The notes beneath the pieces are model-generated. The model was given only the letters and a program-made list of their open reading frames with translations. It made no database searches and was not told where the DNA came from. From the NCBI GenBank assembly GCA_902782955.1, contig CACZPD010000014.1, positions 1-6,218 of the forward strand: a DNA stretch of 6,218 bases, read 5' to 3'. Made by a program: the position numbers and the translations under genes. Shown here in pieces: positions 1,792 to 6,218 of the stretch. Numbering within the stretch: the first letter of the stretch is position 1; each line of letters begins with the position of its first letter. This DNA comes from an uncultured Erysipelotrichaceae bacterium (GTDB lineage Bacteria > Bacillota_I > Bacilli_A > Erysipelotrichales > Erysipelotrichaceae).

Positions 1792-1819
1792 TTTTCATTT
1801 AAAAGGATTGGAATATAAT
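1792..1819 (+). promoter_or_regulatory. Probable sigma-A promoter of the hydrolase/methyltransferase operon
   Basis: A perfect -10 hexamer, TATAAT, lies at 1814-1819 in an A/T-rich context. A weak -35 candidate, TTTTCA (4 of 6 consensus bases), lies at 1792-1797 with a 16-nt spacer. Transcription would start near 1826, inside the palindrome at 1824-1839, which implies control at initiation. The -10 call is much firmer than the -35 call. Confidence 0.6.
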
Positions 1820-1823
1820 ATAA

Positions 1824-1839
1824 GTTAAGCAAAGCTAAC
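1824..1839. promoter_or_regulatory. Operator-like partial palindrome, site 1
   Basis: GTTAAGCAAAGCTAAC begins 5 nt after the -10 box and covers the expected transcription start. Its outer arms GTTA...TAAC are inverted, while the inner bases pair imperfectly. It matches site 2 at 4784-4799 in 13 of 16 positions, including the central CAAA and the whole CTAAC half. The position suggests a repressor site. The regulator is not in the window; DtxR/MntR-type metal regulators and MarR-type proteins both use short palindromes of this general style, so the class is undecided. Confidence 0.55.
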
Positions 1840-1928: not shown

Positions 1929-2567
1929 ATGAAATATATCGGAATGCCTGTGGGAATGTGGATCCTGTTTCAAAGATCATTCCGTGAGCATCTGGTTTCT
2001 GTATTGGGAACAGATGAAAAAGAAGCGGACCGGATCACGAAGTCCGCAAAGACAAAGTACAGGGAGATCATTTCAAAACTGCCTGAATTTGAGAAAAAAG
2101 ACCGCTTTACCATGAATATCGTCAATTGTGCCATGTTCTGCGCGTTTCTTCTTTCGATGGACAGAAAAGCAGATATTGCAGAAATGACAGATTATTATGC
2201 GCAGGCGATGATGACGAAACCGATGAAATGGTTCTGCCGCTTGTCGGGGAAAAAGAAATTCACGGGAAAAGATATTCAGGGAATGAAGGATACGGCAGCT
2301 TTGAAGGCAGCTGACAGGAATCCTTATTCATGGAATATGGATTTCTATCCGTATACGGATAACAGCGGGTATGAGGCAAGATTTACCAGATGCGGGATCT
2401 GCAGGCTGATGAAAGAATACGGATTATATGAATATGTTCCTGCAATGTGTCATCTGGATTACACGATGAGTGATGCCGGCGGCCGCAGTGTTTTCGTGCG
2501 GCAGTATACCCTGGCGTCCGGCGGTCCTTGCTGTGACTGCGGCTATAAGAAAAAGGAAAATGCATGA
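1929..2567 (+). CDS. ATC-hydrolase-family protein A (L-2-amino-thiazoline-4-carboxylic acid hydrolase-like)
   Basis: The protein has 212 residues from ATG 1929. A longer frame from 1869 would add 20 residues but lacks a ribosome binding site. The C-terminal part shows the features I associate with the ATC hydrolase family: TRCGIC (C155, C158), then MCHLD (C174, H175, D177), then GGPCCDC (C201, C202, D203, C204), with NPYSWNMDF before them. The founding Pseudomonas enzyme opens the thiazoline ring of ATC to a carbamoyl-cysteine on the way to L-cysteine. No carbamoyl-cysteine amidohydrolase is present here, so the true substrate is open. No signal peptide is seen; the hydrophobic patches near residues 5-13 and 66-74 are too short to call membrane spans. 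It is the first gene of the operon and overlaps the next one by 4 nt (ATGA at 2564-2567). It is a divergent paralog of the gene at 3409-4023. The family call is good; the reaction is uncertain. Confidence 0.8.
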   Translation: MKYIGMPVGMWILFQRSFREHLVSVLGTDEKEADRITKSAKTKYREIISKLPEFEKKDRFTMNIVNCAMFCAFLLSMDRKADIAEMTDYYAQAMMTKPMKWFCRLSGKKKFTGKDIQGMKDTAALKAADRNPYSWNMDFYPYTDNSGYEARFTRCGICRLMKEYGLYEYVPAMCHLDYTMSDAGGRSVFVRQYTLASGGPCCDCGYKKKENA

Positions 2568-3409
2568 AGTATCATATTGCAAAAAACACGATCCAGGAAA
2601 CACTGGTCATACCGCTGTTCGGAAGACTTGTTTGTTCGGAGCGTTATCCGGAATTGTTTTCCGATGAATCAGCGAAAAGAATATGCGATTCCCTTGATTA
2701 TGATTTCGATGAAAAGCGGAAAAAGATGGAATCTGTTTTCGGCCTCTTCGGTGCTTTGGAAGTGGCGCAGAGACAGTATGACCTGCAGTGTGAGGTAACA
2801 GATTATCTTGAAAAGCATCCTTTTGCGGCTGTGGTGAATCTCGGCTGCGGACTGGACGATACATTCCGCAAGGCAGACAACGGACAGTGCAGGGGTTATA
2901 ACCTGGATTTTCCGGATGTGATTTCAATCAGAAACGGCATCCTTCCCCCGGGTGAAAGAGAAGAAAACATCGGCTGTGATCTCAACGATTTCAGCTGGAT
3001 GGACCGGATCGATGCGGAAAACGGAGCTGTGTTCTTCGCGGCAGGAGTGTTCTATTATTTCAGAACAGAAGATGTCAGGAAACTGTTCTGTGCCATGGCG
3101 GAAAGGTTTCCCGGTTCTGTAGTGTGCTTTGATTCCTGCAATGCAAGAGGCACGAAGATGATGCGTTCAACCTGGCTGAAGGAAGCAGGGATCACGGATG
3201 TGCAGGCTTACTTTTCACTGGAAGATGAAAAGGAACTGAAGACCTGGAGTAAAGATTTTTCTTCTGTCAGTGCAAAGAGCTATATGCGCGGATACCGGGA
3301 TATATACCGGCATGTCGGTCTGATTCACAGACTGATGATCCGGTTCTGCGACAGATTTGTAAAGATGAAGATCATCCGGATCGCTTTTGCGGAAAAGGAA
3401 AAGAAATAA
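2564..3409 (+). CDS. Class I SAM-dependent methyltransferase, leucine carboxyl methyltransferase/TcmP-like
   Basis: This is a 281-residue cytosolic protein. Residues 10-21 (IQETLVIPLFGR) resemble the N-terminal signature of the LCMT/TcmP O-methyltransferase group. The SAM-binding motif I is VVNLGCGLDDTF at 90-101, and the acidic end of strand 2 is D115 in YNLDFPDV. AAGVFYYF around residue 160 fits the motif after strand 4. Family members methylate carboxyl or hydroxyl groups of polyketides, small molecules or protein C-termini; the substrate here is unknown. The start at 2564 overlaps the stop of the preceding hydrolase-like gene (ATGA), and an AAGGAAAA site inside that gene's end serves as its ribosome binding site. 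Its TAA shares one base with the next ATG (TAATG, 3407-3411). Translational coupling on both sides implies that it works together with the two ATC-hydrolase-family proteins. Confidence 0.85.
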   Translation: MKYHIAKNTIQETLVIPLFGRLVCSERYPELFSDESAKRICDSLDYDFDEKRKKMESVFGLFGALEVAQRQYDLQCEVTDYLEKHPFAAVVNLGCGLDDTFRKADNGQCRGYNLDFPDVISIRNGILPPGEREENIGCDLNDFSWMDRIDAENGAVFFAAGVFYYFRTEDVRKLFCAMAERFPGSVVCFDSCNARGTKMMRSTWLKEAGITDVQAYFSLEDEKELKTWSKDFSSVSAKSYMRGYRDIYRHVGLIHRLMIRFCDRFVKMKIIRIAFAEKEKK

Positions 3410-4023
3410 TGGAAAAAAGAATTGAAGAGTATGTACGTATGTTCGGGCGTACTTTGCAGAAATCAGGTTATCCGGATGCGGACCGGAAGGAATCCGATTA
3501 CAGGAAAAGGCTGGAGGATATGTACGCTTCCGAGGCATTCCGTCAGCACAATGTCTATCCAACAATGAATGTTGTCCATGTTTATGCCGTTATCGGGATG
3601 TGTCTGGAGCTGAAGGACGACGGTCTTCCGGAGAATGAGATCATCAGCCTTGTAAACGAAGTGTTCCGCACGAGAAGAAAAGCGTACGCTGCCTTGATCA
3701 GATGCATCGATTTATATCCCGGCAGCTGGAAGATCGCCCGGAAATGGAACATCAATGACCATGAAAAGCGGGTCAGGGACGGCAGTATCACTTATGATTC
3801 ATTTGAAGTCAGTGAAGAAAAGATCGCATATAAGATTTCCAGATGCATGTATGTCAATATGTTTGAATATTACGGGATACGCTCTTTATGCAGGATCTTC
3901 TGCATGACAGATGAAACAGCGTATAAAAACCTTTCGAGGCATGTAGATTTTATCCGGCATTCAGATCTCTCACGCGGGGATTCCTGTCATGATGAGGTGA
4001 TGAGAAAAAGAAAGACCGGCTGA
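3409..4023 (+). CDS. ATC-hydrolase-family protein B (divergent paralog of A)
   Basis: The protein has 204 residues, and its start overlaps the previous stop by one base. AAGGA at 3395-3399 lies 9 nt upstream of the ATG. Its C-terminal third aligns in register with protein A: RC (C146), an 18-residue gap, then CMTD (C165, D168), then R-x3-L-x2-G-x2-C-H-D (C193, H194, D195). Protein A has the same C-x18-C-x2-D spacing and ends in C-C-D one residue sooner. The N-terminal two thirds are charged and helical-looking (EKRIEEYVRMFGR at the start) and show little resemblance to A by eye. No signal peptide or membrane span is seen. The C-H-D triad in place of C-C-D and the absence of the extra CxxC of protein A suggest a different metal or catalytic arrangement. 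Function is inferred from family only; no substrate can be named. Confidence 0.75.
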   Translation: MEKRIEEYVRMFGRTLQKSGYPDADRKESDYRKRLEDMYASEAFRQHNVYPTMNVVHVYAVIGMCLELKDDGLPENEIISLVNEVFRTRRKAYAALIRCIDLYPGSWKIARKWNINDHEKRVRDGSITYDSFEVSEEKIAYKISRCMYVNMFEYYGIRSLCRIFCMTDETAYKNLSRHVDFIRHSDLSRGDSCHDEVMRKRKTG

Positions 4024-4048
4024 AACGGAAAATACCGGAGGAGTAATT

Positions 4049-4735
4049 ATGAACAGAAAAGATCAGATCCGGAATGCGTATAAAGTTACCGGAGGCAAAG
4101 CGGATTTCTATGATGGTATGATGACATATTCTACTTTTTTGGGAAAGCTGATCTGCCGCGTGGTCTGGAATATGGACGGTGAAAAAAACGTACGATACCT
4201 CGAAAAGGCGCTTTCGGGTGTACCGGAAGATTTTTCGGGAAAACTGCTGGAAGTGCCGGTCGGCACCGGTGTGCTTACAATGCCTGTATACAGGGATCTT
4301 CCGGACGCGGATATCACCTGCCTCGATTATTCGGAAGATATGATGCGGAAAGCAAAAGAAAGAGCGGGAACTATGGGGATCCGCAATATCACTTTCCTGC
4401 AGGGAGATGTCGGCGCGCTGCCGTTTGCGGATGAATCATTTGATGTCGTGCTTTCCCTGAACGGGTTTCATGCATTCCCAGACAAGGAAGCAGCCTATCA
4501 GGAAACATGGCGTGTTCTGAAAAAGGGAGGAACATTCTGCGGCTGCTTTTACATCCGCAGGCAATGTGCAAGAACGGACTGGATCATCCGGAACATGTAT
4601 CAGAAACTTGGTTATTTCACGCCGCCGTACGAGACCGCAGGAAGTCTGAAAAAGCGTCTGGGTGAACTGTACGCAGAAACGGAAGTGACTGCAGTGGAAG
4701 GTATCGGCTGTTTCCGGTGCCGGAAAGCAGGATAA
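4049..4735 (+). CDS. Class I SAM-dependent methyltransferase, UbiE/Methyltransf_11-like
   Basis: The protein has 228 residues. GGAGGAG at 4037-4043 lies 5 nt before the ATG, 25 nt after the previous stop. The SAM-binding core is clear: motif I LLEVPVGTG (67-74; E68, G72, G74), acidic D93 in CLDYSEDMM, motif II/III GDVGALPFADESFDVVLS (119-136) and the RVLKKGGTF turn near residue 160. The EVPVGTG form has a proline where many family members have glycine (D/E-x-G-x-G-x-G); I recall such P-containing variants in active homologs, so inactivity is not implied. It appears cytosolic. The family methylates C, N, O or S atoms of small molecules, and the substrate is unknown. It closes the four-gene run of alternating hydrolase-like and methyltransferase genes and is followed by a hairpin at 4745-4767. 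Confidence 0.85.
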   Translation: MNRKDQIRNAYKVTGGKADFYDGMMTYSTFLGKLICRVVWNMDGEKNVRYLEKALSGVPEDFSGKLLEVPVGTGVLTMPVYRDLPDADITCLDYSEDMMRKAKERAGTMGIRNITFLQGDVGALPFADESFDVVLSLNGFHAFPDKEAAYQETWRVLKKGGTFCGCFYIRRQCARTDWIIRNMYQKLGYFTPPYETAGSLKKRLGELYAETEVTAVEGIGCFRCRKAG

Positions 4736-4783: not shown

Positions 4784-4799
4784 GTTAGTCAAAACTAAC
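4784..4799. promoter_or_regulatory. Operator-like perfect palindrome, site 2
   Basis: GTTAGTCAAAACTAAC has perfect 6-bp inverted arms (GTTAGT and ACTAAC) around CAAA. It lies 23 nt before the ATG at 4823, in an A-rich spacer. It matches site 1 (1824-1839) in 13 of 16 positions. TATGTT at 4781-4786 overlaps the left arm and could be a weak -10 box, but no -35 partner is visible, so a promoter here is not established. The repetition of the site before both gene groups implies control by one regulator. Confidence 0.6.
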
Positions 4800-4822: not shown

Positions 4823-5689
4823 ATGGCAAAAAAGGATTCACTGAATCAGAAAAAATCAATGAGTGCATTGTTCCGCGGGAAAGCGATCTTCAAACCGCTG
4901 AATACGGGACGGATCGATGAAAATGTGGCATGTGTACGGGAATGGGTCGCCAATATCTTTTTCTATACAAAGGGAAATACAACGGTCATGATCGATGCCG
5001 GGTATAACTATGAACGGCTGAAGGAAAAGATGGGATGGCTGGACATAGATCCTGCATCGATCAGGCATATCCTGATCACACATCAGGATACCGATCATGT
5101 AGGAGCGCTGGAAACAGACAGTGACCAGCTGTTTAAAGAAGCGACTGTTTACATCGGGGAAACAGAAAACCGCTATCTGACAGGCGAAAAAAGAAGAAAG
5201 GTCATCTACGGATTGTATAAACTCCCGATGGTAAAAATGAATAATCAGAAAGTTCTTCTGAAGGACGGTCAGATCTTTTATATCGATGACATCAAAATAG
5301 AATGCCTGCTCGTACCCGGGCATACATGGGGCCACATGGTGTATCTGATCGATGACATGTATCTGTTTACCGGGGATACGATCTGGTTCGGCCAGGACGG
5401 CGGATACAGTTTTATTTCGACGCTGGCGGAAGACAACAAGCTGGCAGTCCGTTCTCTGGCCGGACTGGAAGCTGAACTGCGGAAAAGTAACAGGACGTTC
5501 AAAGTCATAACCGGACATACAGGCTGGACGGATGACCTGGATTTTGTTTTCCGGCACAGGGAGGAACTGTGCCGTCCGTTCACAAGGAAATACAAAGATC
5601 CGTATGCGCCGTATGACGGCTATATCGAGACAGATGATACGGAAGAAGGAGCGCGGAATCATCCGCTTGGAAAGGTAAAAGGAATATGA
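4823..5689 (+). CDS. Metallo-beta-lactamase-fold metal-dependent hydrolase
   Basis: The protein has 288 residues. AAGGGGG at 4811-4817 lies 5 nt before the ATG. The MBL fold is shown by VMIDAGYN (55-62), the metal motif THQDTDHVG (H87, D89, D91, H92), PGHTWGH (H167, H171), FTGDT (D185) and ITGHTG (H232). The canonical H-x-H-x-D-H has become H-x-D-x-D-H, since Asp 89 replaces the second His. I recall this HQDxDH form in Firmicute MBL proteins, so it is a subfamily trait rather than decay. No signal peptide is seen, so it is probably cytosolic. Family members hydrolyse thioesters, lactones, phosphodiesters or other esters; the substrate here is unknown. The C-terminal tail (about residues 255-288) is acidic and charged. 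It overlaps the next methyltransferase by 4 nt (ATGA) and stands behind a copy of the operator used by the upstream operon, so it probably belongs to the same process. Confidence 0.88.
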   Translation: MAKKDSLNQKKSMSALFRGKAIFKPLNTGRIDENVACVREWVANIFFYTKGNTTVMIDAGYNYERLKEKMGWLDIDPASIRHILITHQDTDHVGALETDSDQLFKEATVYIGETENRYLTGEKRRKVIYGLYKLPMVKMNNQKVLLKDGQIFYIDDIKIECLLVPGHTWGHMVYLIDDMYLFTGDTIWFGQDGGYSFISTLAEDNKLAVRSLAGLEAELRKSNRTFKVITGHTGWTDDLDFVFRHREELCRPFTRKYKDPYAPYDGYIETDDTEEGARNHPLGKVKGI

Positions 5690-6218
5690 AACCGGATTAT
5701 AAAAACTGGATGCCGAAAGGCATGATATTTGCGGGAATGGGAGGAACATGCGCCTTTCTGATTCTTTATATCGTATTCGGAAACACGGGAATCGTTTCCG
5801 GGAGTCTGAAAACGATCCTTCAGGCAGTATCCCTGACCGGTTTAATTGTCGGGATCTGTTCCACCGCCTGGATGATCATGCTGTACAAGGCGTTCTCCTA
5901 TGACGGAAAGCGTCAGATGTCCCGGCAGATCATCGAAGGCATAGCGGGGTATGTCCGTCTCCCGGAAGGCGGGAAAGGCCTGGATGTCGGATGCGGCAGC
6001 GGCGCGCTGACGATCGCCTGTGCCAAACGGAATCCGCAGGAGGAGTTTATCGGGATCGACAGATGGGGAAAGGAATACGCTTCCTTCAATAAACCTCTGT
6101 GTGAAAACAACGCAGCTGCGGAAAATGTAACGAATGTCTCCTTTGCGAAAGGGGATGCGCTGAAACTGGATTTTCCGGACGAGACTTTTGACGCGGTCAC
6201 AAGCAACTATGTTTATCA
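5686..6218 (+). CDS. Membrane-anchored class I SAM-dependent methyltransferase (3' partial)
   Basis: The ATG at 5686 overlaps the TGA of the MBL gene (ATGA), with AAAAGGA-like purines 6-12 nt upstream. The frame stays open to the window end, giving 177 full codons. Two hydrophobic segments lie at about residues 12-31 and 44-67, joined by a short GNTGIVSGSLK loop, with basic residues on both flanks. They predict a hairpin in the membrane with the catalytic domain in the cytosol. The SAM-binding motif I is GLDVGCGSGALTIA (98-111), followed by acidic D127 in FIGIDRWG, GDALKLDFPD (about 157-166), and the ETFDAVTSNYVY segment at the cut edge. The combination of a two-span anchor with a Methyltransf_11/25-like domain is seen in Firmicute methyltransferases. 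The substrate is unknown; the anchor suggests a hydrophobic or membrane-delivered one, which is inference. The likely remainder is 60-90 residues. Confidence 0.85.
   Translation, partial: MKPDYKNWMPKGMIFAGMGGTCAFLILYIVFGNTGIVSGSLKTILQAVSLTGLIVGICSTAWMIMLYKAFSYDGKRQMSRQIIEGIAGYVRLPEGGKGLDVGCGSGALTIACAKRNPQEEFIGIDRWGKEYASFNKPLCENNAAAENVTNVSFAKGDALKLDFPDETFDAVTSNYVY

Follow-up and report, generated by a model that had tools for sequence, protein, structure and literature searches.

Two ATC_hydrolase and two methyltransferase genes that look like one shuffled draw from a gene pool behind a putative iron-type operator

Results

Six genes and two boxes in the window

We analyzed a stretch of 6,218 nucleotides from an uncultured Erysipelotrichaceae bacterium (contig CACZPD010000014.1 of assembly GCA_902782955.1), referred to at its full length as the window. 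It carries six genes on the same strand (A, MT1, B, MT2, a gene for an MBL-fold hydrolase and MT3) downstream of a pair of genes for a NifU-like and a GGGtGRT family protein. A and B encode members of the ATC_hydrolase family (PF14196), and a palindromic iron-type box, GTTAG-N6-CTAAC, stands ahead of each of the two transcription units. The four genes from A to MT2 appear to be one shuffled sample of a large enzyme-gene pool, which gut and rumen bacteria often carry behind this kind of box. The features of the window are as follows.

1792..1819, + strand: promoter-like site TTTTCA-N16-TATAAT, 10/12 consensus bases, ending four bases 5' of box 1
1824..1839, no strand assigned: iron-type box 1, GTTAAGCAAAGCTAAC, one mismatch to GTTAG-N6-CTAAC; putative operator of unit 1
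1929..2567, + strand: gene A, ATC_hydrolase (PF14196) subfamily A, 212 amino acids, with Cys155, Cys174, Asp177 and Cys202
2564..3409, + strand: gene MT1, LCM/TIGR00027-like S-adenosylmethionine (SAM) methyltransferase, 281 amino acids
3409..4023, + strand: gene B, ATC_hydrolase subfamily B, 204 amino acids, with Cys146, Cys165, Asp168 and Cys193
4049..4735, + strand: gene MT2, UbiE/Methyltransf_25-like SAM methyltransferase, 228 amino acids
4745..4767, no strand assigned: hairpin of 9 pairs between units 1 and 2, with a T-run on the - strand only
4784..4799, no strand assigned: iron-type box 2, GTTAGTCAAAACTAAC, exact match; putative operator of unit 2
4823..5689, + strand: MBL-fold metallo-hydrolase, 288 amino acids; its best solved-structure matches are hydroxyacylglutathione hydrolases
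5686..6218, + strand: gene MT3, methyltransferase following an N-terminal hydrophobic stretch, incomplete at the window end

A first-pass annotation had described A, MT1, B and MT2 as an operon of two alternating hydrolase/methyltransferase pairs. The open reading frame (ORF) coordinates bear out its gene order and strand, the overlaps of 4 nt between A and MT1 and of 1 nt between MT1 and B (position 3409 is the first base of B), and the gap of 25 nt between B and MT2. The gene run extends beyond 1929..4735, through the MBL gene and MT3 to the window end, and the four-gene view missed the box ahead of both transcription units. We placed the start of A at 1929 rather than 1869 because the consensus of its homologues opens with MKYxGMPxGMW.

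Profile scans gave 81.3 bits for A and 42.5 bits for B against PF14196, both above the curated cut-off of 28.1 bits. MT1 is an LCM protein (PF04072, 37.3 bits, cut-off 22.3), and MT2 is a UbiE-like protein of the Methyltransf_25/11 type. A and B each carry the three Cys residues and the Asp of the family in their C-terminal half. C155, C174 and D177 (A numbering) are kept in 14/14 aligned ATC paralogs, all of which also have the third Cys, in register or shifted by one residue, and C155, C174, D177, C202 and D203 are invariant in the 25 rows of a further alignment (A3), from which B is absent. A and B are paralogs, as the first-pass annotation had stated, in a distant sense only: they are 16% identical in a multiple alignment, and BLASTP aligned them over just 63 amino acids (25% identity, E 2e-4). 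The placement of the two methyltransferases in different subfamilies, LCM-type and UbiE-like, was correct, since MT1 and MT2 gave no significant mutual alignment. Together with the low identity of A and B, this rules out a tandem duplication of a two-gene pair, in agreement with the earlier judgement.

Searches for solved-structure relatives of A, of the ATC paralogs (alignment A2) and of MT1 returned none that was convincing. The V4R/H-NOX/TRAPP Bet3 ligand-binding fold was among the best structural neighbours of the predicted models of both A and B; the Z scores were modest, and therefore no fold family is claimed. A passage of one published account (PMC5847659) describes a similarity among V4R, HNOB and ATC hydrolase.

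Upstream of A, the NifU-like protein (2-607; NifU_clost, E 1.1e-5, below the family cut-off) and the GGGtGRT protein (623-1642; PF14057, 608.8 bits) make up an iron-sulfur (Fe-S)-like pair adjoining the possible Fe-S enzymes A and B. An Rfam scan of the window yielded no match at gathering thresholds.

Gene order varies while gene content recurs

B was used as a query and recovered 74 loci from GTDB genomes, mostly with Firmicutes labels and many from the ruminant gut; five were labelled Actinobacteria-type or Succinivibrionaceae. Carriers of B-containing pool clusters include Butyrivibrio proteoclasticus P18 (L042) and Butyrivibrio sp. XPD2006 (L035). A was searched independently in three orders at E 1e-20 and was found in 5/295, 44/294 and 8/295 genomes. 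For the comparison of gene order, 188 other loci, many of them short or overlapping, were annotated alike, and the exact order A-MT1-B-MT2 occurred in none of them, only in the window. One other run (L039) contains all four genes, and the order B-MT1-A was observed in three genomes (L033, L034 and L066; L107, L111 and L127 are the same genomes again). In the order with 294 genomes, 34 of the 44 genomes bearing A had no match to B.

The recurrent ORF families around B almost always lie on the strand of B. Of the 74 loci, 24 contain TMa, a small membrane family, in 28 copies; three alpha/beta hydrolase families occur in 20, 14 and 9, the middle one (abH4) having a sub-threshold alpha/beta-hydrolase match of 16.4 bits. 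Methyltransferases MT6 (11 loci), MT2 (10), MT3 (10) and MT1 (9) are also frequent, A lies near B in 11, and further families comprise DUF6796, an ApbA-like reductase, a PEMT-like protein, a P1B ATPase, ZIP, an ATP-binding cassette (ABC) pair and further ATC_hydrolase subfamilies. Apart from B, 47 of the loci contain two or more pool families, 5 contain one and 22 none, the pool having been defined on these same 74 loci. Loci recovered without B show these families around A as well, and so do 20 longer A regions, which contain MT1 (11), TMb (9), TMa (8), abH2 (8), MT2 (7), ZIP (6) and ApbA (6). Across loci, the pool members sit together in changing orders. TMa and TMb (e.g. L042:13679-14182 and L045:7469-7963) are very common small hydrophobic proteins with no Pfam match.

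PF14196 itself is expanded, with up to 13 matches per genome. This count covered 35 genomes, represented by 36 of the 74 loci and selected because they contain B, so that its presence in 35/35 is by construction. Dense runs of several different ATC_hydrolase subfamilies were seen in L075 (G022:C82) and L082 (G002:C60), with up to seven matches within about 5.5 kb on one contig, one of them with an internal stop. L026 (Succinivibrionaceae label) and L069 (Clostridiales label) share a near-identical gene run, which may reflect either a wrong label or bin of a metagenome-assembled genome or mobile genes.

Co-occurrence was measured in the 294 genomes of the order of G002, where A is present in 44, MT1 in 67, MT2 in 55 and B in 12. 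MT1 accompanies A in 40/44 genomes (10.0 expected; Fisher p 9e-27), MT2 in 37/44 (8.2 expected; p 2e-26) and B in 10 (1.8 expected; p 1e-7), all three p values being overstated by genome kinship; 10/294 genomes contain all four genes.

Pool members are also joined within single ORFs. We found 14 long fused ORFs, 13 of them distinct (the L008 and L079 genes are the same), each combining two or three pool members: abH4-B-ATC18, MT1-MT2, MBL-MT2 (twice), MBL-MT3, abH10-MT2, ApbA-MT2, ApbA-MT3, ATC28-MT3, abH10-ATC33, A with an MT6-like half, and two others. None contains ambiguous bases, two (L098 and L123) touch a locus edge, and three have one weak half (ATC28 in L061, 23% identity; MT2-like in L078, 32%; MT6-like in L091, 36%). 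These fusions argue that the hydrolases, methyltransferases and ATC proteins would act in one shared pathway. The abH4-B-ATC18 gene (L008:7206-9284) is a natural fusion of 692 amino acids that joins an alpha/beta-hydrolase-like protein, B and another ATC protein. The natural MT1-MT2 fusion (L183:8060-9589) has halves that are each 75% identical to pool members.

On the version that grows out of the first-pass annotation, the four genes would form a dedicated pathway with an A-B heteromer and two cognate methyltransferases. The tight overlaps in the window and the B-MT1-A order in three genomes fit such a pathway, but among the loci compared its exact order is confined to the window, most genomes with A have no match to B, B also occurs in a fusion with an alpha/beta hydrolase and a second ATC protein, and nothing observed favours the heteromer; we regard this version as very improbable. 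With 22 B loci free of other pool families as well, the two pairs are not supported as a unit. The joint pathway that the annotation drew from the tight coupling fares better, given that the families co-occur, recur nearby and are fused with other pool members: across the loci compared, the content of the neighbourhood is conserved and its order is not.

A relative of the window (L179) is 93% identical over 2181 nt, starting 10 bases before MT2. The 84 bases upstream of this point differ from the end of B and represent another gene, a spacer or a breakpoint; the L179 contig ends close by. Its gene order is MT2, MBL, MT3, DUF6796, TMa and a BAAT_C-type hydrolase (abH50), and beyond MT3 the window probably continues likewise with DUF6796, TMa and abH50. 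Box 2 is kept in L179 as GTTAGTCTAAACTAAC.

An iron-type box precedes pool genes and known iron genes

The window contains two matches to the box with at most one mismatch, against 0.07 expected, and none of 200 shuffles contained two. Box 1 lies four bases behind the promoter-like TATAAT and box 2 precedes the MBL gene. A promoter scan returned 5 sites versus 5.0 in shuffles, and the site at 1792..1819 is marked out by its position alone. Loci L001-L094, some of which overlap so that sites are partly double-counted, contain 112 exact boxes versus 1.0 expected from block shuffles, and 14 whole genomes contain 153 versus 15 for the reversed pattern. Within runs, a box with at most one mismatch was found upstream of MT1 in 19/23 cases (controls 0 and 1) and of A in 14/20 (controls 0 and 2); for exact boxes the figures were 16/23 and 10/20, with controls of 0. 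Counted by eye, 18/20 A blocks have a box at or near their head upstream of A (exceptions L143 and L148), compared with the 14/20 of the stricter script.

To find what the box precedes outside the clusters, we inspected 20 regions around non-cluster boxes in six genomes. Pfam matches identified FeoA in L162, L170 and L173, FeoB in L164 and L176, flavodoxin in L160 and L164, Peripla_BP_2 in L161 and L165, and a DtxR-family repressor gene behind the box in L172. HMA, DUF3793 and DUF6110-P1B genes were recognized in L164, L167, L171, L174 and L175 by similarity to pool members, and L168 resembles L161 by eye. In L163 and L166 the box precedes 2-isopropylmalate synthase-like and amidophosphoribosyltransferase-like genes, assigned by eye, with no obvious iron genes. 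In one cluster (L083, genome G002), Pfam-confirmed feoA and feoB, with a short gene between them, directly precede A-HMA-ZIP.

DtxR-family iron regulons of Firmicutes are known as a kind, and an operator-like box common to known iron genes, as found here ahead of feoA, feoB, flavodoxin, a binding protein and a DtxR-family repressor gene, is what such a regulon presents. We therefore interpret the boxes as putative operators of a DtxR-type iron regulator. A large mosaic enzyme pool inside a DtxR-type regulon was not found in the literature searched. The palindrome might instead serve a regulator of another metal, such as manganese or zinc, to which the cluster would then be devoted: regulators of the DtxR family can be manganese-specific, and ZIP (ZupT-like), HMA and heavy-metal P1B ATPase genes lie within the clusters. 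That feoA, feoB, flavodoxin and an iron-type binding protein stand behind the same box speaks against this explanation, which we consider quite improbable.

Siderophore, heme and transport genes of the hosts

The synthetase of non-ribosomal peptide synthetase (NRPS)-independent siderophores (NIS; PF04183) was found in 0/25 carrier genomes, with 2/14 control genomes positive, and ferrochelatase (PF00762) in 0/25, with 8/14 controls positive. The condensation domain (PF00668) was absent from 18/25 carriers. In most of these hosts the common substrate is therefore unlikely to be a classical siderophore or heme of their own making, and an imported iron chelate is favoured.

Genes for transport were found in some clusters. 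ABC11 matched YbtP best and then IrtA among the half-transporters listed, which likens it to the yersiniabactin and mycobactin importers YbtPQ and IrtAB, and some clusters contain an energy-coupling factor (ECF) set including a Trep_Strep S component. The ABC pair and this ECF set suggest import, as judged from protein similarity. The likeness to YbtPQ/IrtAB has its limits, in that ABC genes occur in a minority of clusters, ABC19 is nearer to Sav1866 and MsbA, and no siderophore synthase was recognized in the clusters scanned.

In an alternative with the opposite direction of traffic, the cluster would make and secrete a new metallophore, neither NRPS- nor NIS-derived, from a primary metabolite, and shuffling would yield chemical variants. 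Aminocarboxypropyl transfer is known from nicotianamine-type metallophores, and the methyltransferase-like proteins may include such transferases. The iron-type boxes, the ABC pair and Trep_Strep ECF importer beside some clusters, and the many tailoring-type genes, methyltransferases and ApbA-like reductase included, are compatible with metallophore production. Among the recurrent families scanned, however, no scaffold-forming enzyme was recognized, and the counts for NIS synthetase (0/25) and condensation domain (7/25 genomes) tell against it; we judge it unlikely, though a serious contender.

Discussion

Our results indicate, with about an even chance of being right, that the window contains one mosaic example of a small-molecule cluster which gut and rumen Firmicutes induce under iron starvation and which remodels a likely imported iron chelate. 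Under low iron a DtxR-type repressor would leave the boxes and both units would be transcribed. A and B would be enzymes whose conserved Cys3-Asp site probably holds a metal or an Fe-S cluster, as reported for TolI, and would break a bond in a hydrophobic or aromatic ligand by hydrolysis. The methyltransferases would methylate this ligand, and its esters, thioesters or lactones would be opened by the MBL and alpha/beta hydrolases. The most likely ligand would be an imported iron chelate (a foreign siderophore, heme or another tetrapyrrole, or a plant chelator), remodelled so that the iron is kept, and different gene sets would suit different ligands.

TolI of tolyporphin biosynthesis, likewise annotated as an ATC hydrolase, is reported, in passages of three papers, to contain an Fe-S cluster and to strip vinyl groups off a porphyrinogen by hydrolysis, without oxygen (PMC8401325, PMC10548856, PMC10459692). 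Its likeness to A and B is one of annotation and description, not of alignment, and the cluster described in those passages differs in being cyanobacterial, with hem genes and cytochromes P450 and no mention of a methyltransferase pool or of shuffling. Chlorophyll breakdown in the rumen was considered, since TolI acts on a tetrapyrrole, and was judged less likely than an iron-bearing ligand because of the iron boxes. The namesake of PF14196 offers another comparison. The L-2-amino-thiazoline-4-carboxylate hydrolase activity of the AtcB type gave its name to the family whose Pfam cut-off A and B pass. For A and B such an activity is a candidate one, and the two differ from AtcB in sitting among methyltransferases, hydrolases and metal genes.

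Several observations weigh against remodelling of an iron chelate by an iron-regulated cluster. A box with at most one mismatch lies upstream of B in only 26/70 runs (controls 3 and 2), and 35/70 B runs have no box and are not cut by a locus edge; among the 74 B loci, 22 are free of other pool families and 5 have a single one, so that the link of B alone to iron or to the pool is not a tight one. Six of the 20 non-cluster box regions (L159, L163, L166, L169, L177 and L178) have no recognized iron or metal gene, and the type of regulator is deduced from neighbouring genes only. The fold matches to ligand-binding families are weak. Condensation domains are present in 7/25 carrier genomes; in six of these seven every match is either on a different contig or tens of kb away from the pool genes, and G014 has a weak match (31.9 bits) within L027, some 5 kb ahead of the Fur-MT3 pool genes. 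Transporters occur in a minority of clusters (ABC11 in 8/74 and ABC19 in 6/74 B loci), and ABC19 matches Sav1866 and MsbA before YbtQ, a similarity that is unspecific. Finally, the interpretation is built from sequence, gene context and box computation, with binding, expression and enzyme activity predicted only.

Low iron could also act without any chelate being handled, if a lipid, quinone or cofactor were rebuilt to need less iron. Flavodoxin replaces ferredoxin under low iron, the same box precedes flavodoxin genes, and the pool is rich in small membrane proteins and membrane methyltransferases. The metal carriers within the clusters (ZIP, HMA domain, P1B ATPase) are at odds with such iron sparing, and the patchy distribution of A over the three orders fits an accessory trait better than core remodelling; we think it clearly unlikely.

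Chelate remodelling, if it takes place, invites a bolder proposal, tentative and somewhat unlikely as we see it: an undescribed form of anaerobic iron acquisition in which iron-regulated, shuffled TolI-like Fe-S enzymes, methyltransferases and hydrolases dismantle or rebuild imported iron chelates (heme from the diet or other tetrapyrroles, foreign siderophores, plant chelators) so that the iron is freed or kept, each bacterium using its own subset. No description of such a cluster was recognized in the literature searched, most subscription journals being outside its reach. Iron-regulated small-molecule loci are known; it is the composition, with its shuffling and PF14196 expansion, that looks new. 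Were the chemistry indeed the dismantling of chelates by TolI-like enzymes, this would be more than a variant of known loci.

To our knowledge, members of PF14196 are mostly uncharacterized; in one paper (PMC9674144) ATC hydrolase figures as a single row in a table of enrichments, which was uninformative. Database names such as thiazoline hydrolase and methyltransferase hide what appears to be an iron-stress system, patchily distributed over gut and rumen Firmicutes, and with the box a testable prediction can be made for a gene set that had no name: its genes and the metabolome should respond to iron starvation. If the substrate is a chelate or a tetrapyrrole, the system would reveal a way in which anaerobes obtain iron from food or from their neighbours and would give PF14196 a role.

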